A DNA stretch of 43,350 nucleotides from Desulfobulbaceae bacterium. GTDB lineage: Bacteria > Desulfobacterota > Desulfobulbia > Desulfobulbales > Desulfobulbaceae. The stretch is taken from positions 1 through 43,350 of the forward strand of contig JAFLKR010000017.1 of the NCBI GenBank assembly GCA_019163135.1, in the 5' to 3' direction. Below, piece by piece: positions 17,153-31,501 of this stretch. The first letter of the stretch is position 1. Every line of letters begins with the position of its first letter. The translations under genes and the position numbers were made by a program. The notes beneath the pieces were generated by a model that saw only the letters and a program-made list of their open reading frames with translations, was not told where the DNA came from and ran no database searches.

Positions 17153-19276
17153 ATGCAGGTTCCGAGGTGGTCAACCATCGTATCAACTTTTGAAAAATGG
17201 CCGATTGGGAAAAAATTTTTCTTCGGGAATACCCTTGTTCTTATCCTGCCACTCCTGATTATTTTCGCCTTCCTTCTCTATGCTGGCTTCACCCAGCCAA
17301 GCAAGATTGTCCCCCAAAGCCTGGAGGCAGGGCCCCTTGCCGGCCTCTTCTCCCCCCCATTGGCCTTGGTTCTGCTGTTTTCGATCGGTGCCCTGCTGGC
17401 GACCTGTGCCGCCTATTTCCTGAACCGACTGCTAACCACGCCCCTCAGGCAGTTTGCCGAACGGTACGAAACTCCGGGAAAAACCAAGGATCTCCACTAT
17501 ACCGGGGGCTGCGAAGCGACCTTTCTGATTGATGCCTTCAATCAGTATGCCCAGCAATTGCGCACCACCAATGAAAAACTCAACGTCGAGGTCCAATTTC
17601 GGAAAAGCGCCGAAAATTTTCTCCAGATTTACAAAAAGATCTTCGACAACGCCAATGAAGGGATCGTGATCACCGACGCCACGGCCAAAATCCTGGCGGT
17701 CAACAACGCTTTTTCCACCATCACAGGGTACGAACTCGCCGAGGTGATCGGGCAAAACCCCAGGATGCTCCAATCAAAACGCCATAATTCTTTTTTTTAT
17801 GAGCAGATGTGGCAGAGTCTGACCGAGAAGGGTGCCTGGGAAGGAGAAATCTGGAATAAAAAGAAAGACGGCAGCCTCTTCCCGGAATGGCTGACCATTA
17901 ACGCCATCCGTAACGAACGCAAAGAAATCGTCTACTTTTTCGCCACGTTTTACGAAATCGGCGAACTGAAAAAACGGGAGAAGCAGATAACTTTCATGGC
18001 CTATCATGATATGCTTACCCGACTGCCGAACCGGGCCCATCTGGAGAATAAACTGGCGAAAAGCCTCGCCGCCATGCCTGCTGATGACGGCAAAATCGCG
18101 GTTTTCTATATCGATCTGGATAATTTCAAAAACGTTAATGATGTCTTTGGCCATAATCAGGGGGACGACCTGCTCATCCAGGTAACCCAACGGTTTGCTG
18201 CGGTTTTAAGTGAGAATGACACCCTGTGCCGCCCCGGTGGAGACGAATTCATTCTCCTTATGGAGCATATCGAAAACGAGTCGATCATTTACCTGATGGC
18301 CAATCGGCTGCTGACGGTGCTGAAAAAACCGTTTTTAGTCGATCGCAAAAAAATTTATATCAATGCCAGTATCGGCATATCGATCTATCCGGATGACGGG
18401 AAATCCGGACTGGACCTGATCAGGAGTGCCGATATGGCCATGCATAAGGCCAAAGGTGAAGGGAAAAACCGCTATTACCTGTTCACCAAGGGCATGCATG
18501 AGCTTGTCTACGAAAAATTCCGAATCGAAACCGGCATTCGTTTGGGACTCCGCCACAAAGAATTTGTGGTCTTTTATCAGCCCAAGGTCAATATCATCAC
18601 CCGGAAGACCTCGTCGCTGGAAGCGCTCATCCGCTGGAAAAAAGGGGACACGCTCATCCCTCCCGATGCCTTTATCCCGGTCGCGGAGGAGTCGAGCTTA
18701 ATTGATGATCTATGCTTGTTTGTGATGGAAGAAACCTGTGCCTTCCAATCCGAGATGAAAAAACAGCGGGTGGCCGTGCCCATCAGTGTCAACATCTCGC
18801 CCCGTCAATTTCATAACGCCGATTTTGTCGACATTGTCGAAGACCTGCTGGGCCGATACCAGGTCGCCCCCGAATACATGGAGTTCGAAATCACCGAAAC
18901 CACGGCCATGAAAGACGTTGAGCATACCCTGAAAATTATGCATCGTCTCCGCCAGATGGGCATCCTCTTTTCCATCGACGATTTCGGCACCGGATATTCC
19001 TCCTTGGGCTATCTCAACAAGATGCCGGTCAGCACCCTGAAGATCGACAAACAATTTATTGATGATCTTCAAGAAAATGGCGGTATTGTGGCCACCATTA
19101 TTGCCATCAGCCAACAGATGCATCTTAATGTTGTCGCCGAAGGCGTGGAAACGGAAGAACAACTGCTCAGCCTCGCCGCCATGGGCTGCCAGGAGGCGCA
19201 GGGGTATTATTTCTCCCGTCCGCTCCCCGGAGACCGTCTGCTTGAATATCTCCTCGCAGAAGGCACGGTGCTCTGA
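17153..19276 (+). CDS. membrane-anchored PAS-GGDEF-EAL cyclic-di-GMP protein
   Basis: A 707-residue protein that makes and/or breaks c-di-GMP. Two hydrophobic segments (about 24-46 and 68-90) frame a very short external loop. A linker and a PAS domain (about 160-275) follow. The GGDEF domain (about 276-440) has the intact motif RPGGDEF at 360-366. The EAL domain (about 455-700) has the intact motif SLEALIRW with E490, plus SIDDFGTGYSSLGYL, LKIDKQFI and VAEGVETEEQ. The allosteric RxxD site before GGDEF reads SEND, so its arginine is missing and product inhibition is probably lost. Both active sites look complete, so net activity cannot be predicted. The ATG at 17153 follows AAAGG. The 1064-residue gene begins 92 bases downstream. 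Confidence 0.93.
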   Translation: MQVPRWSTIVSTFEKWPIGKKFFFGNTLVLILPLLIIFAFLLYAGFTQPSKIVPQSLEAGPLAGLFSPPLALVLLFSIGALLATCAAYFLNRLLTTPLRQFAERYETPGKTKDLHYTGGCEATFLIDAFNQYAQQLRTTNEKLNVEVQFRKSAENFLQIYKKIFDNANEGIVITDATAKILAVNNAFSTITGYELAEVIGQNPRMLQSKRHNSFFYEQMWQSLTEKGAWEGEIWNKKKDGSLFPEWLTINAIRNERKEIVYFFATFYEIGELKKREKQITFMAYHDMLTRLPNRAHLENKLAKSLAAMPADDGKIAVFYIDLDNFKNVNDVFGHNQGDDLLIQVTQRFAAVLSENDTLCRPGGDEFILLMEHIENESIIYLMANRLLTVLKKPFLVDRKKIYINASIGISIYPDDGKSGLDLIRSADMAMHKAKGEGKNRYYLFTKGMHELVYEKFRIETGIRLGLRHKEFVVFYQPKVNIITRKTSSLEALIRWKKGDTLIPPDAFIPVAEESSLIDDLCLFVMEETCAFQSEMKKQRVAVPISVNISPRQFHNADFVDIVEDLLGRYQVAPEYMEFEITETTAMKDVEHTLKIMHRLRQMGILFSIDDFGTGYSSLGYLNKMPVSTLKIDKQFIDDLQENGGIVATIIAISQQMHLNVVAEGVETEEQLLSLAAMGCQEAQGYYFSRPLPGDRLLEYLLAEGTVL

Positions 19277-19368
19277 AGTTGGAGTTGAAGCAACCGAGCC
19301 GGCTTTTCCGCGCACTCGGCAACAACCCGCAGCCAAAATGATTAAACCCCGCAAAGGAGTTTTCCTTC

Positions 19369-22300
19369 ATGAAGAAAAAGCCGTCACGGCTGTTCTTTGA
19401 TCCCAACGATCACAAATTACTCAGCATTGTCAATGACGTTCTCAAAAGGGGCACCCGGCCGCAGACCCTGAGTTCGTTGCTGGCCCCCTATATGCACCCC
19501 CATGGCATTAAGGAGATGGCCGCCCCCAGCGGTCTGCGGATCGCCTACGCCATTGTCAGCCTGCTGGGATCCCTGGAAGCCGGCAAGGCCCAGGATCGGA
19601 TTGTGGCCCTGCGCTCTCTCTGCGAGGAAGTGTTCAGTTCGTCCACCACCTTTTATCATAAGAATACCGCCCGGGTCCTGATGCAGATCATGAAGGAACT
19701 GGTCCGCAGCAAAGGTAGTGAACTCAAACAGTTACAATTGGCCCATGATTTTCGCATGGCCTACACCGGCAAACCCCGCATGGTCAGGGCACAGCTCGCC
19801 AAATACCATCTCCTCGAAATGCCGGAGGAATGGAATCAGTTCGCCTTTGACGACCATGTCCACGACGCCAATACCAAAGGCCGGAAATCCCCCACCCACC
19901 TGCTGATGGATGCCTGGATTAAAGGCATCCGTAAGTTGACCGTGGTCTATTACAACCATGTCGAGCAGGAGGTGGTTGAAGAACTGCTCGAGGCCAGCGC
20001 CATTCTCAATATCCATGTCCGCATCGGCATCGAGCTCTCCTCCCGGTTCCGCAACAAGTTCGTCCGCTTTATCTGGGAGTTGGAAGGCTTTTTCGACAAT
20101 CACAATCTGCTCCAATTTCTCCAGGAACAAACCGTTAAGGACATGATGGCCCAGGGACGAGAGGTTTCCCTGTATCAACAGCGCTACGTCCTCGACGTCC
20201 TCGGGGAGTTCAACGCCACTCACCGCCTGCTCCTCGACCGGGAAATTGCCGTGGAAAGTCAGGCTCTCGGCGAAGACGAGTTCCGCCATTTTGTCGGTGC
20301 CGGCCAACCATCGCTCCTCCATCTGGCCAAATATATCCAGAACAATTACCATAGCCTGCTGAACGAGCAAGTCCGGCGGATTCGCGAGGAACAACCAGAA
20401 GACCGCGCCAAGCTGGAAGAACAACTCCAGGCCTGCTCGAAAAAGATGCAAAACCTTGATCTCGAAACCCTCATCAACCGTTTTCTGCAGCCATGCCGTA
20501 ATCGCATCCTTCACGATCCAACGGTCCCGCACGATGAGGGCGTGCCGCCGCTGATGAACCTCTCCCCCCCCGAGTTGGTCAGCCGACTGGCATCCATGCA
20601 CTCCAGCTCTCGTTTCACCCTCAATCTGAGCAATCTATCGATCCAGGACACCCTGGAATTACTCTATCAGTGTGAAGGTCGCATCACCCATATTGAATCC
20701 TTCAACCTCAAGGATTCGGCCTATGGCATGACTTCGGTCGCCGCAGTCAAAGGGAGCGGTTTTGCCGGAGAAGCGGTGGATATCACCAGTCCGGCCCGGA
20801 ATTACCTGCTGATCAACAGTCTGCAAAAAGCCTTGAACGAAGATAATGTCATCACCCTGAAGCGAGCGATTCGCGCCATCATCTGGGATTTCGAGCGCTC
20901 CCGCCTGATCGTTGAAAAGAACGTTGAAGACAGCCGGAAAAAAACCGCCGAACCCGAAGCTCTGGCCAGGGTGACGGTCGAGTTGACGGAGATGAACGAA
21001 CGAAAAGCAGCGCTGCTCGAAATCCTGCTCAATATCGAATCGTTTCATAGCCATTACAATAAACGCTACCTCGGTTCCCGGATCGGTTCCGGTTCCACCG
21101 GGCAATCGCAACTCCAGTACGGCATGGGACTGGTGGTGCTGGATACTCTGCCCCCGCGGGCCTACCGGAAGGTTATGCGGGAACACCAAGAGTGCCATCG
21201 CAAGCTCATCCCGGTTACGGCACGGATGATCAAACACCAGCACACCAGCGGCCGCAATCCGGTTTCGACTTCCTGGACCAGACGGCTGGCTGATCGTATC
21301 CCCGGCTTGCGGCAGAACGGTGCGCATCTCTGGAACGACTGGAGCCTGGACCGATTCGAGATTCATCCCGGAACCGATGGCAATATCGCCACCCTGGGTG
21401 GTATCCGCCGAACCCCGCGGATCGATATTCATCCGGCGATAAACAAAGACCAGGAAAAAATCGAACAGCCCTTGCGCTATCTCAACTCCCATCTGCGCAA
21501 CACCCTCAAGGTAGCGGTCGGTTTTATTCCCGCCTTCCTGACCTTCAGCCTCACCAAGGACTGGTGGGTGCTGGCCTATCTCGGGGCGTTCATCTGGTTC
21601 GGGATTACCGGGGTCCGCAATATCATCCAATCCATCCTGGGCGGCGGCGGGCTCAAACGTTCGCCTCTATTGCCCTGGAATTCGCTGGTCAGCTGGAGCC
21701 GGATCGCCGATTCCCTCTTTTACACCGGTTTTTCCGTGCCGCTGCTCGACTATCTGGTGAAAACCCTGCTGCTGCAAGAGCAGTTCGGGATCACCACCTC
21801 AACCAATCCGGTGTTGCTCTACTCGGTAATGGCCCTGGCCAACGGAATTTACATCTCAACCCACAACATCCTGCGCGGTCTGCCCAAGAGTGCCGCAGTC
21901 GGCAATTTTTTCCGCTCGATCCTCTCCATCCCCCTGGCCCTGCTCTTCAACTCCGCCATCGGCAGCGTCCTGCATCTGGCCATGGTTCCCGGGGTCGAAG
22001 CAGGCATGCAGAAATGGGCGGCGGTCATCTCCAAGCTGGCTTCGGATTGCGTGGCCGGAGTGATCGAGGGCCTGGCAGACCGGCAAAACAATGTCCGCAT
22101 CCGTCTGATCGATTACCGGGAGAAGGTCTCCCAACTGTTTGCGGTCTTTGCCCGCTTCGACGTGCTGTTTCCGGAAGAGGATGTCCTGGAACTGCTGCAA
22201 AAACCCAAGACCTTGATCGCCGCCATCCATCAGGATGCGCGGGATCTGGAGAAGGTGTTCATCGTCAACGCCTTGGATCTCATGTATATCTGGATGTATC

Positions 22301-22563
22301 AGCCCAGGGCCAGGAAGGCCTTACAACAGACCGTGGCGGCGATGTCCACCGAGGAGTGGCTGATTTTTTACCGCTCGCAACTGGTGCTCAAGCGGCACCG
22401 GGAGATCAGCCAGGTCTTTGTCGATGGAATAGTCGGTAAAAACTTTTCCAAGGCCCTTTCTTTCTATCTCGACCGGGCCGATGCCTACCTCCAGGACATG
22501 GTGCAGATCGGTATGGTGCGGGAGAAAATCCTAAAAAAACAGCGTCGTCCCCTTACGGCCTGA
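19369..22563 (+). CDS. large membrane protein of unknown function with PHP-like N-terminal motif
   Basis: A 1064-residue protein I do not recognise. Residues 1-150 look helical. Residues 155-245 contain FDDHVHDANTKG, a spacer with KGIRKLTVVYYNH, and then NIHVRIGIELSS. This strand-helix succession and HxH placement recall the start of a PHP (polymerase/histidinol phosphatase) metal-dependent barrel, though later ligands are not obvious. Residues 330-365 and 505-555 are charged and probably coiled-coil. Four or five hydrophobic segments follow at about 712-729, 732-755, 774-800, 813-833 and 846-872. A soluble, helix-rich tail of about 190 residues ends basic. There is no signal peptide, so the PHP-like part should be cytoplasmic. 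It lies 92 bases after the GGDEF/EAL gene and may share its transcript. The start is set by AAAGGAG shortly before the ATG. Confidence 0.85.
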   Translation: MKKKPSRLFFDPNDHKLLSIVNDVLKRGTRPQTLSSLLAPYMHPHGIKEMAAPSGLRIAYAIVSLLGSLEAGKAQDRIVALRSLCEEVFSSSTTFYHKNTARVLMQIMKELVRSKGSELKQLQLAHDFRMAYTGKPRMVRAQLAKYHLLEMPEEWNQFAFDDHVHDANTKGRKSPTHLLMDAWIKGIRKLTVVYYNHVEQEVVEELLEASAILNIHVRIGIELSSRFRNKFVRFIWELEGFFDNHNLLQFLQEQTVKDMMAQGREVSLYQQRYVLDVLGEFNATHRLLLDREIAVESQALGEDEFRHFVGAGQPSLLHLAKYIQNNYHSLLNEQVRRIREEQPEDRAKLEEQLQACSKKMQNLDLETLINRFLQPCRNRILHDPTVPHDEGVPPLMNLSPPELVSRLASMHSSSRFTLNLSNLSIQDTLELLYQCEGRITHIESFNLKDSAYGMTSVAAVKGSGFAGEAVDITSPARNYLLINSLQKALNEDNVITLKRAIRAIIWDFERSRLIVEKNVEDSRKKTAEPEALARVTVELTEMNERKAALLEILLNIESFHSHYNKRYLGSRIGSGSTGQSQLQYGMGLVVLDTLPPRAYRKVMREHQECHRKLIPVTARMIKHQHTSGRNPVSTSWTRRLADRIPGLRQNGAHLWNDWSLDRFEIHPGTDGNIATLGGIRRTPRIDIHPAINKDQEKIEQPLRYLNSHLRNTLKVAVGFIPAFLTFSLTKDWWVLAYLGAFIWFGITGVRNIIQSILGGGGLKRSPLLPWNSLVSWSRIADSLFYTGFSVPLLDYLVKTLLLQEQFGITTSTNPVLLYSVMALANGIYISTHNILRGLPKSAAVGNFFRSILSIPLALLFNSAIGSVLHLAMVPGVEAGMQKWAAVISKLASDCVAGVIEGLADRQNNVRIRLIDYREKVSQLFAVFARFDVLFPEEDVLELLQKPKTLIAAIHQDARDLEKVFIVNALDLMYIWMYQPRARKALQQTVAAMSTEEWLIFYRSQLVLKRHREISQVFVDGIVGKNFSKALSFYLDRADAYLQDMVQIGMVREKILKKQRRPLTA

Positions 22564-22627: not shown

Positions 22628-22658
22628 AAAAAAAAGGGCGACCCGCAATGGGTCGCCC
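22628..22658 (-). terminator. glnA terminator
   Basis: On the minus strand GGGCGACCC and GGGTCGCCC form a perfect nine-base stem around a five-base loop and are followed by eight T. It lies 30 bases after the glnA stop. Confidence 0.92.
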
Positions 22659-22687
22659 TTGGTGCTACTGATTCCTTTACGCGTTGA

Positions 22688-24016
22688 TCAATATTTGCTC
22701 AGATAATTATCGAGCTCCCAATCGGTGACCGCGGTCCGGAAGGAATCCCATTCCTTCTCCTTACCTTCGATATATTTGCCGACGATGTGGGGACCAAGGG
22801 CTTCCATGGCAATCGGATTGGCCTTGAATTCCTGGATGGCTTCCATGAGATTTGCCGGCAGACTGGCGATTCCGGCCTCCACTTTCTCGGCGGCGGTCAT
22901 TTCGAAAATATCGACATTGACCGATGCCGGCACTTCCAGGTTGTTCTTGACGCCGTCCAGACCTGAGTTCAGCATCATGGCAAAGGCCAGATACGGATTA
23001 CAGGTGGGATCCGGGCAGCGCACCTCGGTACGGGTTCCCATGCCGCGGGACGCCGGGATACGAATGAGGGCGGAGCGGTTGGAAGCAGACCAGGCAATAT
23101 AAACCGGGGCCTCATAACCGGCCACCAGCCGTTTATAGGAATTGACCAACGGATTGGTGACGGCGCAGAATCCCCGAGCATTTTTCATAATGCCGGCAAT
23201 GTATTTATAGGCAATCTCGCTTAACTGCAGCGGACCCTTTTCATCAAAAAAGGCGTTCGTGCCATCGAGTTTGAACAGCGACTGATTGGTGTGCATGCCG
23301 GAACCGTTGATCCCGAAAACCGGTTTGGGCATGAAGGTGGCGTGCAAGCCGAATTCAGCCGCGATCGAACGGACAACCCACTTGAAGGTGACGGTGTTGT
23401 CGGCAGCGGTGAGGGCATCGGCATATTTGAAGTTGATCTCGTGCTGGCCTTCGGCAACTTCATGATGGGAGGCCTCAATCTCAAAGCCCATGGCCTCGAG
23501 AGTGTGGATGATTTCGCGACGGCAATCGATGCCGGCATCGTCGGGTTCCACATCGAAATAGCCGGTGACATCGTCGGTGATGGTGGTGGGCATGCCGTCT
23601 TCATCCCGTCTAAACAGGAAAAATTCAGCTTCAGTCCCGACATTCATGGTGTACCCGAGTTTTTTGGCATCCGCCAACACTCGTTTGAGGTTGTTCCGGG
23701 GGCAACCGACAAAAGCGGTGCCATCCGGTTTGTAGACATCGCAGATAATACGGGCCGCATTACAGCCATTTTTTTCACGCCAGGGCAAGACCACAAAAGT
23801 ATCGTAATCCGGCTTGAGGTACATGTCGGACTCATTGATCCGAACGAAGCCCTCGATGGAGGAACCGTCAAACATCATCTGCCCGTCCAGCGCCTTTTCG
23901 ATCTGGCTTTTGGGAATGGCAATATTTTTCATAAAACCGAAAATATCAACAAACTGCAGGCGGAAGAAATTCACATTCTTCTCTTTGATAATTTTCATTA
24001 TTTCGTCACGTGTCAT
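22688..24016 (-). CDS. glnA: glutamine synthetase, type I-alpha (non-adenylylated form)
   Basis: Makes glutamine from glutamate, ammonium and ATP as a cytoplasmic dodecamer. The 442-residue length and sequence follow the Bacillus/Firmicutes I-alpha form. Typical blocks are [38 protein letters not shown] and [13 protein letters not shown]. Arg59 within EGFVRI corresponds to the alpha-type feedback arginine. The extra segment and the NLYDLPPEE adenylylation motif of proteobacterial I-beta enzymes are missing; the matching region reads [12 protein letters not shown], with Phe where Tyr would be. So control by GlnE-type adenylylation is not expected. A strong AAGGAG precedes the ATG, and a good terminator follows the stop. 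It lies downstream of the type III gene with a decayed insertion sequence between them. Confidence 0.95.
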
Positions 24017-24060
24017 AACTCATCTCCTTAACTTTTGTGGATTCTGATTACCAACGAACT

Positions 24061-24240
24061 TCAGCCAGGGTCAGCAGGTGCTGGGGGATCGGCTGCGTTG
24101 TAGTGCTGCATAGTGGCCAGCCGGTCAACCATGGCATCCAACTGAAACCGGCAATTGAAACGATAACAAAATTCGCCAAGATATCGGGACAGACGCCTTG
24201 CGCTAACGGTATGACAGGTGGAACACACACCATTCTTCAC
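24061..24240 (-). pseudogene. remnant of an IS1595-family (ISXO2-like) transposase, C-terminal end
   Basis: The minus-strand frame ending at 24061 contains HTVSARRLSRYLGEFCYRFN and then a run matching the RFxLDxMxDRL pattern. This is how IS1595-family DDE transposases end (usually a HGVSKKHLQRYLDEFCYRFNRR-like block). Only about 55 residues survive. The catalytic residues and the start are gone, and degenerate residues sit at conserved places. I could not make out the terminal inverted repeats. Confidence 0.65.
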
Positions 24241-24445
24241 CTTGCCAATTCCCGTATTGCGCCAAGGGTTGTCGTCTTTCGCCTGGGAGAACAGATTCAT
24301 GCCCAGGAACTGAGCTTCAGCGGCAGTTTGGTGCTGGCGCAGATGGTTCATCTGGATCACCGAACCCCGAAAACGGCGAACACGACACTGGACCTGATTC
24401 GTGTATAATCCTGAACATGGAAAAGATCAATAAACGAACACTTAA

Positions 24446-24607
24446 TCAGCAGACACCATACGAGAGCTGCGCAAGCTGGCCGAGTACCAATATGGGTTTG
24501 GGGAGTGGCGCACGGGTTTCCCCCTGGCGCTCGAGCGAGACGGGATGAAGCCGGCAGATTCGGCGGCATTGGCATCCGTCGAGCTTTGGCTGACGAGGGA
24601 TGGATGA
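24446..24607 (+). pseudogene. start-less remnant of an unidentified protein
   Basis: Between a TAA and a TGA lies a 53-residue frame containing RELRKLAEYQYGFGEW and ending ASVELWLTRDG. It has protein-like composition but no usable start codon or ribosome-binding site. It may be the tail of a gene broken when the neighbouring insertion sequence arrived, or part of that element. The family is not recognised. Confidence 0.35.
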
Positions 24608-24628
24608 CTGCGGCTTACGTCCTGCGGG

Positions 24629-24660
24629 AAAAAAAGGCCGCTCCCCTGCCGGGAGCGACC
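24629..24660 (-). terminator. glnN terminator
   Basis: On the minus strand GGTCGCTCCC pairs with GGGAGCGGCC over ten positions (one G-U) around a short loop, followed by seven T. It begins 27 bases after the glnN stop. Confidence 0.88.
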
Positions 24661-24687
24661 TTGAACGCCTTGGCGATAAAACCGAAA

Positions 24688-26868
24688 TCAGCGGATAAAC
24701 AGCATCTCCTGGTAGGAGGGCAGCGGCCACAGATCGTCAGCCACCACGGACTCCAGGCCATCGGCGTAGCCGCGAACCGCCAGCATGGCAGGAAGCACCT
24801 TCTTGCACATGTACGTGGCGTGGGCCAGGGTGTCGCCGCCTTCGTGGGCCAGAAGTTTCTCCAGCTTATCCACCTCGCCTTGCATATCGCGTAGCTTGGC
24901 GGTGACGTCCTCAAGGGTGTCCATCTTGATGTCGTGGCCGATGGTCTTGAGGCTGGCGCAGGTTGCGGCGAGCTGACCCTGGTAGCGCATGGCGGCCGGG
25001 AAGATCACGGTGCGGGCCATGCGGATCACCAGGTTGGCCTCGGTGGTGACGGTCTTGACGTACTGCTCCAGGTAGATCTCCTGGCGGCTCTTCAATTCGG
25101 CCTCGGAGAGGACGCCGTACTTGGTGAAGAGGGCCACCACCTCCTTGCTGGTGAGCACCGGCAGGGCCTCGGGGGTGGTCTTCAGGTTAGGCAGCCCGCG
25201 TTTGGCCGCTTCCTTGTGCCAGGCGTCGGAATAGCCGTCGCCGTTGAAGATTACGGCGTCGTGCTCCTTCATGATCTTCTGGAGCAGCTTCTGCACGCCC
25301 TCGTTGAACTGGGTTTTGTTCACTTTGCCCAACTTCTCCAGTTCGGTTGCCACGTAATCGAGGGATTCCGCCATCATCGTGTTCAGGGCCACTTGGGCGC
25401 CGGCGATGGAATGGGAAGAACCCACGGCGCGGAACTCGAAGCGGTTGCCGGTGAAGGCAAACGGGCTGGTGCGGTTGCGGTCGCCCGGATCCATGGGCAG
25501 CGGCGGCAGGGTGTCGACGCCGATGTTCATGATGCCCTTGGTCTTGGATCCCTTGACCTCGCCCTTTTTGATCTGCTCGAACACGTCGGTGAGCTGCTCG
25601 CCCAAGTAGGCGCTCATGATGGCCGGCGGGGCCTCATTGGCGCCCAGGCGATGATCGTTGGAGGCGGAAGCCACGGTGGCGCGCAGCAGGGCGCCGTGCT
25701 TGTGCAGGGCGCGGAGGGCGGCGGCACAAAACACCAGAAACTGGGCGTTGGAGTGGGGGGTGTCACCCGGATCGAAAAGGCAGCCCAGCTCCGCGTTGCC
25801 CAGGGAGTAGTTGAGGTGCTTGCCCGAGCCGTTGATGCCGGCAAACGGCTTCTCGTGCAGCAGGCAGATCATACCGTAGCGCTTGGCCACGGAGCGCAGG
25901 GTAGTCATGACCAACTGGTTGTGGTCGGTGGCCAAGTTGCCGGATTCGTAGATGGGAGCAATTTCGAACTGGGCGGGGGCCACTTCGTTGTGGCGGGTCT
26001 TGACCGGCACGCCCAGCTTGAAGAGCTCACGCTCGACTTCCATCATGAAAGAGAGCACGCGGCGGTTGATCACGCCAAAGTACTGATCCTCGAACTCCTG
26101 GCCCTTGGCAGAAGGGGCGCCAAAGAGGGTCCGGCCGGCGATGAGCAGGTCGGGACGGGAGAACACAAAGTTGCGATCGACCAGGAAGTATTCCTGCTCA
26201 GGGCCGGCGTAGGAGCCCACGGGCAGCTTGGTGGTGACGCCGAACTGACTCAGCACGCGCTTGGCCTGCTTGTTCAGGGCCTGGAGGGAGCGCAGCAGCG
26301 GCGTCTTCTTATCGAGAGCCTCTCCGGTCCAGGAGACAAAGGCAGTGGGGATGCAGAGGAAGGTACCGTTGGGGTTCTCGAGGAGATAGGCCGGGCTGGT
26401 GACGTCCCAAGCGGTATAGCCACGGGCTTCGAAGGTGACCCGCAGTCCGCCGGAGGGGAAACTGGAGGCATCGGGCTCGCCCTGGATGAGCATCTTGCCG
26501 GAGAACTCGGCCATGGCGCCCCCGTCGCCGTCGGGAACCAGGAAGGCGTCGTGCTTTTCGGCGGTGAGGCCGGTCAGGGGGTAGAAAACATGGGTGAAGT
26601 GGGTCGCGCCCTTCTCGATCGCCCAGTCCTTCATGGCGTTGGCGACCACGTCGGCAACGGAGGCGTCAAGTTTCTCGCCAAAGTCGATGGTTTTCTTCAA
26701 CGACTTGTAAACATGCTTGGGCAGCCGTTCCTTCATGACCTTGTCACTGAAGACGTTGGATCCAAAGATGTCGGTGGGTTTTGTTTCGCTGAAATTCAGG
26801 GGGGCATGGGAGGGTTGGTAGTTGATGATTGCTGAAATGGCGTTCAGACGGGCCTGGATTCCACTCAT
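24688..26868 (-). CDS. glnN: glutamine synthetase, type III
   Basis: A 726-residue glutamine synthetase of the GlnN class, unrelated in size and oligomer form to the type I enzyme next to it. Class features are the N-terminal [40 protein letters not shown], the substrate region [13 protein letters not shown], the [14 protein letters not shown] block and the downstream [20 protein letters not shown]. The family's normal length is 700-730, so the gene is complete. GGAG lies before the ATG. A terminator separates it from glnD upstream and another follows it, so it is probably a single-gene unit. Such enzymes are often induced under nitrogen limitation. Confidence 0.95.
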
Positions 26869-26936
26869 AGTGCACGCTCCATAAAGGGTTGAAAATGATG
26901 AGTACTACAGCTCAGAAATTAGTTTGTGGATTGATG

Positions 26937-26956
26937 AAAAAAACCGGCCTTGCCGG
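26937..26956 (-). terminator. terminator of the amtB-glnB-glnD operon
   Basis: On the minus strand CCGGC and GCCGG pair around a three-base loop and are followed by seven T. It begins about a dozen bases after the glnD stop. The stem is short but the T-run is good. Confidence 0.7.
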
Positions 26957-26968
26957 ATACTTTTGGAC

Positions 26969-29568
26969 CTACGGAAGGCGAGGCAAAGCGGCGGATTCGA
27001 GTTCCACCTCCTCCGCACTGATGATCCGCATCAGGGTCATGTGCACCTTCTCCACCGCAGATGGCTCGGTCAGCTTGTCGCCGGATTGGGTCCGGACATA
27101 AAAAATGTCAATCAGTTGTTCCACCTCTGTGGCGATGCGGGCCCGATGAATGGTCAAGCCGAAATCGGCCAAGGTTTGCGTCAACTGGTACAACGTCCCC
27201 CGGCTGTCACCGCCATACACCTCGACCAGGGTGTAGTGCTGCGAGGTCTGATTGTCGATGATGACCTTGCGCTCCAACTGCTGCACCTGCCGGGTCGGGC
27301 CGTGGGTCTGCGGCTGCAGCTTCTGATAAAGTTGGTAGCCGACATCGAGGCGATAATTGATCGCCAGATTCAAATCCCGCTCCATGGCATGCCAATCCAT
27401 TTCTGCAAAGGTCCGCGCCGTTGCCGGGACGACCTCAAGGACATCGACCACGGTACCGTCGGGCCAGGTGAAAATCTGCGCCGAACGCACCTTCAGGTTA
27501 TACAGGGCCAGAACCCCGCAGAATTTAGCCAGCAAGCCCACCTTGTCGGGACCCATGATCAACAGCGACCAGCTGTGCTCCCCCGATTCCGGAAAAAGCA
27601 GGACCTGCTGCCGGAGGCGGGCGGCCTGCTCCCGATGGATCTGGAGATGCCGCATGACGACCTCCAGGCTGAAACTCATCAGATAATCGGCCGGCAGCGT
27701 GGCAATATCAATCCGGGCCGGCTGTCCGTCGAGCTTCGTCAGAATCTGCTCTCGCAGCCAGCTCACCCCCTGCTCTTCATCCTCCAGCCCGCCGGTGTCG
27801 AGATGACAATCGGCCCCAAGGCAGGCTTTTATGCTCAGATACAGCTCGGAGAGCAGGCTCGATTTCCAGTCCGACCAAGCCGAAGGCCCGGTTGCTTTGG
27901 AATCGGCAATAGTCAGCAGGTAGAGCATGGTCAGGCGTTGGCTATTCCCGATCAGTTCCGCTGCCTGACGGATAAACTCGCGATCGCTGAAATCGCGGCG
28001 CATCGCATTTTCCGGCAGAAACAGGTGATAGCGAATGAGAAACGCCAACGTCTCGCAGGCGCTCTCCGACAACCGCAACCGGCGCCCGATGTCGACCACC
28101 ATTTCCGCCCCCAGAGCCGAGTGGTCGGCCTGCTTGCCTTTCCCGATATCGTGCAGCAGGGCCGCCAGATAGAGGATTTCGATCGCTTCGATCTCGGCGA
28201 ACAGATCCACCATGCTCTTTTTCAGCAGGTTCAGCTCGGTCACGGTCTGCAACTGGTGCCGATCGACGGTGTACAGATGGTAAAGATCATGCTGGGCCAA
28301 CGATTCCACCCCGGCAAATTCCGGAATGTAGCGCGTCAGCAGCCCGGTGGACAGCATGGTTTCCAGAACCGGAAAGATGTGGTCGGTCTGAGTCAACAGT
28401 TCAAGAAAAATCCGAGCCGCACGCTTAGAGGACCGCAAGTGGTCATCCACCAGATCCAGATTGCTGGTCACGATCTGGCGGGTGCGGTGATGCAGTTGCA
28501 GCCCCACCCGCCCGGACTGCAGGAAAAGCCGCAGGAGCAGATAGGGCCGCTCCGCCAGATCATCCACCGAGGTCAGCCGCACCGTGCCGCCGCGAATAAC
28601 GATGGAGCGTTCGAGTTGCTGCTCCACCGTCGAACCGGTGGTGATCCCCAGCACCTCCTGCACATGTTCAAAGAACAGATCTGTCACCACAGAAACGGTC
28701 TGCAGATGGCTGTACACATCCCGCATAAAGTGTTCGACCCCGAGCATCCCGCCCTCGTCCCGGTAATCAAAGGCCTCGGCCATTCCTTCCTGAAACTCAA
28801 AAATCAGATGATCATTTTTACGGCGGCAGAGCAGGTGCAGGCGATTTCTGATCTTGGCCAGCATGGACCAGGAATTCTCAAAGGCCTGGCGATTGGCCGC
28901 TTCCAGCATCCCGGAGGATTGGATGGCATCGAGGTCCTGCAGCCCGAAGACGCCTTTGGCCACCCAAAGCATGGCCTGAATGTCGCGCAGCCCGCCCTTG
29001 CCTTCCTTGATATGGGGTTCAAGCAGGTAGGTGTGACTGCCGAACTTCCGCCAGCGTTCCAGTTTGAAGGCTTCCATGGTCCGGGCAAATTCATGCCGGC
29101 GCCCTTCAAAGACCTTCTTGGTGTAGCGTTCCCGCAACTCGTCGAACAGGGCCTGGGATCCGGCAAGCAACCGGGCATCGAGCAAGGCCACCTGGAAATG
29201 AAAATCATCCAGGGCAAACTGCACGGCATCCTTGACCCCGCGCACACTGTGTCCGACCTCAAAGCCCTCGTCCCACAACGGGTAGAACAGACCTTCCGCT
29301 ACGGCCTGCATCGATTTTTTCGACCACCAGTCATGCAGAAGCAGCAGATCGATATCCGAATAAGGGTACATTTCGCGGCGGCCGTATCCGCCCAAGGCAA
29401 TAACTGCTATGGCTCCGCGGGCGTTCTGCACCGCCGGTGTCGTCTTAAACTGGTGAATAATAAAATCGTCCACCAGAGTGGCACTTCGATGCAGAATTTC
29501 CTGACCGCTGAGTCCTTGCCGCCCCGCCTCAGCCAAGGCTTCCTGCTGCAGACGCAGGGTTGAGGCCA

Positions 29569-29569
<1 letters not shown>
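26969..29569 (-). CDS. glnD: bifunctional PII uridylyltransferase / uridylyl-removing enzyme
   Basis: An 866-residue sensor enzyme that adds UMP to PII when glutamine is low and removes it when glutamine is high. The nucleotidyltransferase motif ALGGYGRREMYPYSDIDLLL (residues 58-77) holds the metal-binding aspartates. The central HD domain shows ALLHDIGKGKQADHSALGAE. Two C-terminal ACT domains (about 690-770 and 795-866) bind glutamine. The ATG overlaps the glnB stop by one base (TAATG), so the two genes are translationally coupled. The length agrees with GlnD of other proteobacteria. Confidence 0.95.
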
Positions 29570-29937
<368 letters not shown>

Positions 29938-30008
29938 TCAGGTCGATCACGCCCGCTGCGGCTGGCTTTGCAGGTAATCAAGACAGACGGATCGAAAACC
30001 TTTGGAAA

Positions 30009-31229
30009 TTAATTGTAGGCGGTTTCCGAATGCTCCGTATAATCGAGACCCTGATGCTCGGCCTCTTCGCTGATTCTCAGTCCCATAATCTTATCCGTGA
30101 CCTTGAGAATAATCCAGCTGACCACAAAGGCATAGAGGCAGACTACTCCGACCCCGAGCATCTGTGGCCACAACTGGGCGCTGCTCCCGGCCAGCAACCC
30201 GTCGACTCCGGCGGGGTTGACCGCTTTGGAGGCGAACACCGCCAGAAGAATGGTTCCGGTCACGCCACCCACACCGTGGATGCCGACCACATCGAGACTG
30301 TCATCGAACTTGAATCTGCTTTTCAAATTGACTGCGATATAACAGACAACACCTGCGATAAACCCTATAACAATCGCCCCATTCGGTCCAACAAAACCTG
30401 CCGCCGGGGTGATGGTCGCCAGTCCCGCGATAGCGCCGGAGGCAGCACCTAAGGTTGTGGGCTTGCCCAGTTTAATCCATTCCATCAAGGTCCACATCGC
30501 CATCCCGGACATCCCGGCCAGATGGGTGGCGACAAAGGCGGTCGCCGCCACTTCGTTGGCTGCCAGCGCACTGCCGCCGTTAAAACCGAACCATCCAAAC
30601 CAGAGGAGGCCCGTGCCCAGCATGGTCATCGGCAGATTATGCGGCATGAAATTAGTCTGCCCATGACCTTTGCGCGGTCCGATAACCAGCACCGCCGCCA
30701 GGGCCGCAGCCCCGCAGGTGGCATGCACCACCAAGCCACCGGCAAAATCAAGCACGCCGAGTTTTGCCAACCACCCGCCGCTCCCCCAGATCCAATGGCA
30801 GACCGGATTATAAACCAAAAGAGCCCAGAGCAGGCTGAACATCACAAAGGCGGGAAAACGCACCCGTTCAGCAAAGGCCCCGGCAATCAGGGCCGGAGTA
30901 ATCACCGCAAACATGCACTGGTAAATCATAAACACCGATTGCGGAATGGTGGTGGCATAGATAGCGCTGGGCGCATTGGTCACTCCTCGCAAACCCGCCC
31001 AGGAAAGGTCGCCGATAATACCCGAAATATCGGGACCAAAGGACATGGTATAGCCGACATAAACCCATTCAAGCGATACCAGCGAGATCAGGACGAAACT
31101 CTGCATGATAGTGCCCAACACATTCTTGCTCCGCACCATCCCGGCATAGAACAGGGCCAACCCGGGCGTCATCAGCAAGACCAGACCGGCTGCCGCTAAG
31201 ATAAACGCAGTGTCTGCGCCGTTGATCAT
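30009..31229 (-). CDS. amtB: ammonium transporter
   Basis: A 406-residue inner-membrane channel of the Amt/Rh family with about eleven helices. Typical segments are LAAAGLVLLMTPGLALFYAG at the start, GLLWFGWFGFNGGSALAANE in the middle, and DVVGIHGVGGVTGTIL with the conserved histidine. A longer frame begins at 31421, but MINGADTAFILAAAG at 31229 has a strong AAGGAG at the right distance and matches the usual mature N-terminus, so I use it. No cleavable signal peptide is evident. The gene leads the amtB-glnB-glnD operon. A near-consensus sigma-54 promoter lies about 270 bases upstream, consistent with nitrogen control. Confidence 0.95.
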   Translation of the reverse strand: MINGADTAFILAAAGLVLLMTPGLALFYAGMVRSKNVLGTIMQSFVLISLVSLEWVYVGYTMSFGPDISGIIGDLSWAGLRGVTNAPSAIYATTIPQSVFMIYQCMFAVITPALIAGAFAERVRFPAFVMFSLLWALLVYNPVCHWIWGSGGWLAKLGVLDFAGGLVVHATCGAAALAAVLVIGPRKGHGQTNFMPHNLPMTMLGTGLLWFGWFGFNGGSALAANEVAATAFVATHLAGMSGMAMWTLMEWIKLGKPTTLGAASGAIAGLATITPAAGFVGPNGAIVIGFIAGVVCYIAVNLKSRFKFDDSLDVVGIHGVGGVTGTILLAVFASKAVNPAGVDGLLAGSSAQLWPQMLGVGVVCLYAFVVSWIILKVTDKIMGLRISEEAEHQGLDYTEHSETAYN

Positions 31230-31245
31230 TGCCTGCTCCTTATTT

Positions 31246-31275
31246 ACATTATTGAAAGTTACATTATTGAAAGTT
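31246..31275. repeat. perfect tandem duplication of 15 bp upstream of amtB
   Basis: ACATTATTGAAAGTT occurs twice head to tail, followed by a T-run. The first copy ends 17 bases from the amtB start, so the repeat sits in the leader next to the ribosome-binding site. It looks like a recent slippage or replication duplication. Confidence 0.85.
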
Positions 31276-31501
31276 TTTTTTGATCCACACGCGACCCATT
31301 CCCGACGGCCCCGGATCCGGTCAACACTTTCTCCACGGTCAACCCGCTCGTCGGTACAGAACTCCGGATAGTTACAGGGGATGAGCGTAGCAAACCATCG
31401 CCATTGCGACAGACCGTCCATCGCCAGATAAATGCACCCCAGAAAAAACAGTCCGCAACAGGTACCGCGACAACCCCCCGCAGCCCAAGTCCTCTTATCA
31501 A

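Follow-up and report, generated by a model that had tools for sequence, protein, structure and literature searches.

The closest described relatives of the protein treated here are RNase AM (RNM, YciV) and the TrpH-type 3',5'-nucleoside bisphosphatase CV1693. As given in an excerpt of PMC9410882, RNase AM holds three manganese ions, with the alpha metal bound by His13, Glu72 and Asp255, the beta metal by Glu72, His83 and His198 and the gamma metal by Asp20, His45 and His257, and its activity is disrupted by D20A, E72A and D255/H257A. A second point of reference is the PHP domain of E. coli DNA polymerase III, in which 5 of 9 ligands are replaced and which persists without metals, according to an excerpt of PMC3666897. 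Here we describe a gene at positions 19369..22563 (+) of a 43,350-nucleotide stretch of a Desulfobulbaceae bacterium genome (contig JAFLKR010000017.1, positions 1 to 43,350; hereafter the window). It is an open reading frame (ORF) that starts with ATG and encodes a membrane protein of 1064 amino acids with a predicted PHP barrel; the gene is defined by the ORF, its relatives and their alignment. The protein shares with RNase AM and CV1693 the barrel fold, the HxH motif, the Glu of GxE and a GQ...H.A insertion segment, but its family has lost the beta and gamma ligands, has Lys in place of D20, and carries very large insertions, an extra N-terminal helical domain and a membrane half. Like the variant polymerase domain (Z 11.9 to 4jom) it keeps the fold and loses metal ligands; unlike it, the family has no polymerase part, shows other replacements (near-invariant Lys, Arg and Lys in motif I) and carries a membrane domain.

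To characterize the fold we modelled the whole protein with AlphaFold2, using 63 relatives (mean predicted local distance difference test score, pLDDT, 82.2; predicted template modelling score, pTM, 0.80). With this full-protein model, Foldseek recovered RNase AM of Vibrio cholerae (9etk, E 4.7e-5), two Bifidobacterium PHP protein entries (3o0f, E 5.6e-5; 3e0f, E 8.9e-5) and CV1693 (2yb1, E 2.6e-3). The VIA-align Z-scores were 18.0 to 3o0f (root-mean-square deviation 2.8, 253 residues aligned), 17.7 to 3e0f (3.1, 258 aligned), 16.7 to 9etk (3.7, 258 aligned) and 16.5 to 2yb1 (3.4, 258 aligned), and these four best structure alignments cover model residues 156 to 667. Lower rows held a second RNase AM entry (7ug9, Z 13.2), DNA polymerase PHP domains (Z 9.8 to 11.9) and two further PHP proteins (Z 9.1 and 9.3), whereas unrelated structures stayed under Z 7, against 16.5-18.0 for the four PHP structures. 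Profile comparison with hhalign gave a consistent picture: set against 25 ordinary PHP proteins of the RNase AM/TrpH type, drawn from the same genomes or related ones, the family scored probability 73.5 (E 3e-5) in a first comparison and 81.3 (E 1.2e-5) with 112 rows, while the N-terminal, membrane and reversed control profiles gave E 0.07, 0.1 and 0.49. The first-pass annotation had proposed a PHP barrel by eye, and as a fold the proposal is borne out by the model and the profiles alike. By descent and predicted fold the protein is a member of the PHP superfamily, an assignment that is well supported.

Family models barely register this relationship. An NCBIfam scan of the 63 barrel regions returned RNase RNM for 15 of 63, nucleoside bisphosphatase for 14 of 63, CehA/McbA for 2 of 63 and ten other names, the commonest being alpha-glucosidase MalA (7), all far under the cut-offs. 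The RNase RNM/RNase AM model NF047791 (cut-off 375 bits) gave 15.7 bits for the whole protein and 17.5 bits for the barrel region, and PF02811 (PHP) found no match at E <= 0.1 among the 63 members. Five PHP regions of the protein's own genome exceed the PF02811 cut-off, and the 1064-residue gene is not one of them. The protein reaches the cut-off of no Pfam or NCBIfam family, and the earlier remark that no known family joins these parts stands. Searching PDB sequences directly, with either the single protein or a 63-row profile, yielded nothing useful, Pfam scans of the barrel and of the membrane half gave scattered weak matches only, and neither PHROGs nor plasmids contained a match. A literature search found no paper on PHP-domain proteins of Desulfobulbus or on membrane PHP pseudoenzymes; for transmembrane PHP-domain proteins of Deltaproteobacteria it brought up a single Nautilia genome paper, and no work on the PHP superfamily and phosphate was about this protein by its title or the start of its abstract. 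At about 1000 residues and with 313 relatives in one scan, the protein lies outside every Pfam and NCBIfam cut-off.

We then scored the nine metal-ligand positions, counting HxH as two, after the 'nine conserved residues' in the excerpt of PMC3666897. The barrel (RNase AM/TrpH type with large helical insertions) spans residues 157-665 (19837..21363, +), as judged from structure alignment ranges of 156/158 to 661/667 and, for its first half, from the profile alignment. Its altered motif I (residues 161-174, DDHVHDANTKGRKS; 19849..19890, +) keeps HxH, and the HVH noted earlier at 163-165 is there in the translation: among the 112 aligned members H163 is His in 104 and H165 in 102. The metal Asp, at the Asp20 position, has become Lys170 (Lys in 108/112), flanked by R172 and K173. 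The strand-helix pattern of the first-pass annotation, KGIRKLTVVYYNH, lies at residues 185-197 and runs into altered motif II (YYNH, residues 194-197; 19948..19959, +), where TDHD is replaced and the His45 ligand is Asn196 (Asn in 100/112, His in 2). The GIEL it had also listed (residues 220-223; 20026..20037, +) keeps Glu222, which is Glu in 107/112. Of the remaining positions, His83 is represented by His in only 4/112, His198 by Leu in 101/112 and His in 1, Asp255 by Asp in 70/112 and Gly in 27/112 (Gly in the window protein), and His257 by Thr in 95/112 and His in none.

The first six positions fall inside the significant profile alignment. The last three (420, 575 and 577) were placed by motif (GSDSTG against GSDFHG, TLNLSN against VLAHPG) together with strands predicted by the AlphaFold2 model at 415-418, 441-446 and 569-573; the altered last motif itself (residues 573-578; 21085..21102, +) reads GSGSTG in the window protein, where the family consensus is GSDSTG and ordinary PHP proteins have GSDFHG, and was located by motif and the strand at 569-573, its profile match being non-significant. 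Across 111 of the 112 rows (one gapped row was left out), two of the nine ligands are kept in 17 members, three in 27, four in 61 and five in 6. The window protein keeps 3 of 9, while all 25 ordinary PHP controls keep 9 of 9. The beta-site His pair is wholly lost in 107/111 and the gamma triplet in 109/111. On these aligned residues, the nine-ligand trinuclear site that serves as the criterion for PHP enzymes is absent, with three positions assigned by motif only, and the ligand loss is well supported. With at most 5 of 9 ligands in any of the 111 members, the metal-dependent hydrolase suggested earlier finds no support, and PHP-like metal-dependent catalytic activity has probably been lost.

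Around the former active site lies a polar set of the family's own, close to invariant among the 112 members: K170 (108), R172 (110), K173 (111), H318 (111), E443 (111), N446 (111) and S576 (110). Of these, H318 lies in the helical insertion domain (residues 239-412; 20083..20604, +), in a GQPSLLH318LA segment similar to the GQTGRPHIA of ordinary relatives. Conservation extends to the replaced positions, and motif I is basic, a pattern that suggests an anion-binding pocket rather than decay. In this family a metal-enzyme fold has clearly been turned to another use, with a highly conserved pocket kept and tied to a membrane domain.

That membrane part, which the first-pass annotation had credited with four or five segments, is real, but the count is better put at six, both by predicted helices (707-729, 733-759, 776-805, 814-836, 840-870 and the start of 876-933) and by hydropathy peaks. 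Hydropathy averaged over 88 sequences exceeds 1.0 inside all six, although the sixth is weak and does so at three positions only. The domain covers residues 707-904 (21487..22080, +). Predicted inside loops average 3.6 (758-778), 2.0 (835-842) and 5.2 (904-925) Lys+Arg, against 0.75, 0.63 and 0.01 for predicted outside loops; the charges follow the positive-inside rule and so fit a topology with both termini in the cytoplasm. Conserved residues of the domain include R750, N751, Q754, H832, N833, R836, R849, K889, D893, E900 and D904, and 15 of 17 conserved polar residues in the helices sit in the inner half. Overall helix conservation differs little between inner and outer halves (0.79 vs 0.72, P 0.047). 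The long helical tail described earlier was likewise recovered, as predicted helices reaching about residue 1057 (C-terminal helical domain, residues 905-1057; 22081..22539, +). A separate model of residues 690-1064 (pLDDT 82.9, pTM 0.76) matched nothing in the PDB by Foldseek at E <= 0.001 (the lowest E was 0.38 and the highest Z 6.4), and the membrane half matched nothing at that threshold in a viral structure library; such missing matches are weak evidence and no proof of a new fold. For a possible resemblance to the Gcr-type 'recombinase' membrane family (SpecificRecomb, PF10136), the Pfam profile gave three matches at E 0.1-0.5 in 36 genomes, and this gene was not among them.

Next we looked at the gene's surroundings by DNA-level search within 3 kb in 80 loci, of which 66 have 1 kb upstream and some have little flanking sequence. 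Phosphate-related genes recur. One locus (L087) has a PiT-PhoU_div-gene array with gaps of 10 and 26 bp, another (L074) has PhoU_div directly upstream, and L088/L209 show the order PhoU_div-PiT-gene, as does L095 by BLAST. A glycerophosphodiester phosphodiesterase (GDPD) gene lies directly downstream in L060, L062 and L072 and beside the gene in G412, G140 and G141 as well. By BLAST recount, PhoU_div occurs within 3 kb in 4 of the 80 loci (L074, L087, L088, L095), PiT in 3 (L087, L088, L095) and GDPD in 3, so that 7/80 have a phosphate-related gene; farther out in the same flanks there is no PhoU_div, no PiT and one GDPD. Phosphate-linked PiT, PhoU_div (DUF47) and GDPD are recurrent neighbours in several genera, by association only, and the window protein itself has no Pfam match to any of the three families.

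A whole-genome test of these three families covered 77 genomes with 88 gene copies, with copy numbers recounted from listings. In the part of this set that was compared, no relative of the five discovery loci exceeds about 68% identity, and two loci, L088 (G522) and L083 (G577), are inside the set but were unused in choosing the families. PhoU_div was found within 3 kb at 4 loci, which represent 2 genus-level events (G522; genus g219) vs 0.16 expected (P 0.011). GDPD was found at 4 loci, or 3 events (G412; G140 and G141 as one; G157) vs 0.18 expected (P 0.0009), and PiT at 5 loci, or 3 events vs 0.19 expected (P 0.0009). The PhoU_div-PiT-gene order of G522 was confirmed by Pfam, and in G632 (genus g219) a histidine-kinase gene stands between the PHP-fold gene and PhoU_div-PiT. 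Ferritin, picked in the same manner, served as a control. Among the matches listed, its four loci (G152, G154, G158, G164) belong to one genus (g45), on the same strand and at most about 1.4 kb downstream, and count as one event vs about 0.3 expected with about 160 copies assumed; of the 80 named loci, 2 have it inside 3 kb. Neighbours that close relatives have in common therefore need collapsing before they are counted. Altogether, the association with phosphate genes is a tendency, and most loci have no phosphate gene adjacent.

The GGDEF/EAL gene beside the PHP-fold gene in the window encodes a PAS-GGDEF-EAL protein (17153..19276, +), which places its end 92 bases before the ATG at 19369 just as first recorded, but a linkage shared by the whole family was not seen in the 80 loci. 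A relative lies within 3 kb in 6/80 loci (L025, L026, L029, L030, L031, L033), directly upstream and on the same strand in all six, and all six are titled Desulfobulbus; the pairing is therefore a genus feature rather than a family feature, and GGDEF/EAL was not accepted as a partner of the family at large. With simple longest-ORF calls the count had at first been 3/78 (L029 and L065 were dropped, their central gene being uncalled). In one Desulfobulbus locus (L031) what remains is a 28-residue EAL protein end 48 bp upstream of the gene, with a coenzyme A (CoA) ligase gene 446 bp upstream, and here the GGDEF/EAL gene seems to have been lost while the PHP-fold gene stayed.

The account we favour, held tentatively and at somewhat less than even weight, is a non-catalytic PHP barrel that would bind a phospho-ligand and control the membrane domain in the handling of phosphate or phospholipid headgroups. 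The gene, the predicted fold, the ligand loss in the first barrel half, the topology support and the fixed architecture were computed here. The ancestor may have been an RNase AM/TrpH-type PHP phosphoesterase whose catalytic metal centre was lost and which was joined to an inner-membrane domain of six helices. The barrel, on the cytoplasmic side, keeps the residues of the first metal site (HxH and Glu in most members, Asp in 70/112) and has lost the other two sites, with near-invariant Lys170, together with Arg172 and Lys173, taking the place of the former third-metal Asp. In this form it could bind a phosphate-containing ligand without cutting it, and its bound or empty state would be passed on to the membrane domain, whose conserved polar residues cluster toward the cytoplasm and whose task would be to gate, move or modify a phosphate compound or the headgroup of a phospholipid. 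With the polar face of the membrane domain toward the cytoplasm and the phosphate-related neighbours added, this is the account we favour; the ligand, the direction of signalling and the role of the membrane domain are what we infer, not what was computed. If the link to phosphate is right, the family would give sulfate reducers a sensor or transporter of a new kind for phosphate or phospholipids. A bolder form of the proposal seems improbable but worth stating, namely a new class of receptor for phosphate or phosphoesters in sulfate reducers, in which near-invariant basic residues replaced the second and third metals, the old substrate or product is bound uncut, and the barrel is coupled to a membrane domain, possibly of new fold, that gates or moves phosphate compounds. 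Several observations pull the other way. The alpha metal site is complete in 66/111 members, so that one metal and some catalysis may have been kept. The second barrel half alone (columns 400-460 and 560-600) gave a non-significant profile E of 0.18, within the 0.01 to 0.4 of 22 unrelated 100-column stretches, which leaves positions 420, 575 and 577 to motif and predicted strands. No neighbour is constant, the 7/80 for phosphate genes is hardly above the 6/80 for GGDEF/EAL (the latter from one genus), and the phosphate theme was picked after many neighbours had been viewed. Removing the weakest events (the GDPD of G157, 2.1 kb away on the other strand, and a weak PiT match in G577) raises P to 0.015 for GDPD and for PiT.

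That same alpha site is the basis for regarding the protein as an active membrane-bound hydrolase, with one metal held by HxH, Glu and Asp, Lys170 standing in for the third metal, and a membrane-associated phosphodiester or phosphomonoester as substrate. The strong conservation of the barrel core and the GDPD neighbours would suit such an enzyme. We consider it unlikely, however, as the alpha site is incomplete in 45/111, the Asp position is Gly in 27/112 including the window protein, and the excerpt on RNase AM (PMC9410882) reports that losing Asp20, Glu72 or the Asp255/His257 pair is disruptive. Nor do we think it probable that the barrel is simply a structural scaffold for the membrane domain, a role that has been ascribed to the variant PHP domain in E. 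coli DNA polymerase III. The analogy has some force: in that protein the fold outlived the ligands and, by the excerpt of PMC3666897, matters for stability and activity, and in the present family conservation of the membrane helices roughly equals that of the barrel core. A pure scaffold would nevertheless have no need of near-invariant polar residues where the active site used to be (K170, R172, K173, H318, E443, N446), and these residues offer a direct route to testing the phospho-ligand reading.

A different emphasis would make the six-helix domain a transporter or lipid scramblase/flippase that moves a phosphate compound, with the barrel as its cytoplasmic gate. The conserved charged and polar residues listed above for the six helices (R750 to D904) and the operon-like arrangement with PiT/PhoU_div fit this picture, but the domain resembles no known transporter fold convincingly, a weak argument in itself, and we rate the proposal as quite unlikely. 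Least probable is a protein of envelope signalling linked to cyclic di-GMP, the earlier hypothesis. It draws on the PAS-GGDEF-EAL gene adjoining in the window and on the six upstream Desulfobulbus relatives, one of them a 28-residue remnant, and the DNA-level recount of these led us to move it from extremely to very unlikely. Against it, 74/80 loci have no relative within 3 kb, though some of these have little flank, and one Desulfobulbus locus (L031) keeps the remnant only.

Turning to distribution, 313/319 pattern-matched stretches encode a relative in a scan of one genome per species, which is conservation far beyond chance; the best 80 of these relatives were kept as the named loci. Among these best 80, the closest relatives of the PHP-fold gene are in genomes titled Desulfobulbus, and most titles name Desulfobacterota/Deltaproteobacteria, alongside a single 'Alphaproteobacteria' and a single 'CSSED10-310' metagenome-assembled genome. 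At class level 77/257 genomes match at E <= 0.001; among them three matches (G085, G153, G156) are weak, involve the barrel part alone and may come from ordinary PHP proteins, and that of G168 is to a fragment. At phylum level the membrane half was matched in 46/395 genomes at 53 places, of which 51 lie in open frames of at least 954 residues; the other two frames have 557 and 67 residues, and the match in the shorter one is spurious. As these matches are nearly all in full-length frames, barrel and membrane half travel together in the members seen. In the phylum of the genome titled Alphaproteobacteria (L091), 2/299 match, namely that genome itself and a 59-residue frame.

Some members deserve separate mention. 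The most distant sequence in the 112-row alignment is L186 (G412; 954 residues). It has a His, within an NHP motif, where His198 would be, Glu in the place of Lys170, and Ala and Thr for the Asp and His of DxH; its gene follows directly on a GDPD gene, and the protein may represent another stage of active-site loss. A Desulfobacteraceae genome carries convergent side-by-side copies (L078:279-3386, +, and L078:3416-6538, -), and several genomes of genus g133 have two or three copies. At G009:C1:1636429-1636758 (L023, L024) a 354-residue frame matches only residues 822-867 and 989-1056, at 62-74% identity; it is a shortened or decayed second copy, the full copy lying elsewhere in the same genome.

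Other neighbours are varied. Among the remaining window genes, relatives of the hybrid kinase occur within 3 kb in 6 of the 80 loci (29-39% identity), of the CoA ligase in 5 and of glnA in 0, and none was retained as a partner; type III glutamine synthetase and GlnD had no match near the 80 loci. By simple gene calls, the commonest neighbour cluster other than the family itself reaches at most 9/78 loci, a rough upper level given that the simple caller can hide genes behind longer spurious ORFs (as seen in L210). Same-strand adjacent neighbours numbered 47 upstream and 34 downstream, of which 20 and then five more were examined. Apart from phosphate genes they include LacI and LysR regulators, ferritin, a cation efflux protein, MFS and TctA transporters, an AsmA protein, an HDOD protein, a transposase, a methyltransferase, proteins with no Pfam match and others. 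A convergent CotH-kinase-like protein lies directly downstream of the gene at L035:5374-7080 (-), and its cluster occurs in three loci (L035, L036, L039).

In the window itself, a ribosome-binding-site-like AAAGGAG (19353..19359, +) lies 9 nt 5' of the ATG in the sequence, and the protein begins with a conserved N-terminal helical domain based on predicted helices (residues 1-150; 19369..19818, +). The upstream PAS-GGDEF-EAL gene is a partner in Desulfobulbus only. Downstream, the type I glutamine synthetase gene (glnA) is convergent with the PHP-fold gene, and between the two is a terminator-like hairpin on the glnA strand (22634..22660, -), from a consensus scan with 11 such hits in the region vs 7.8 expected. 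A nitrogen-assimilation block (22688-31421, -) holds type I and type III glutamine synthetases, GlnD and an ammonium transporter, with a 112-residue ORF between GlnD and the ammonium transporter.

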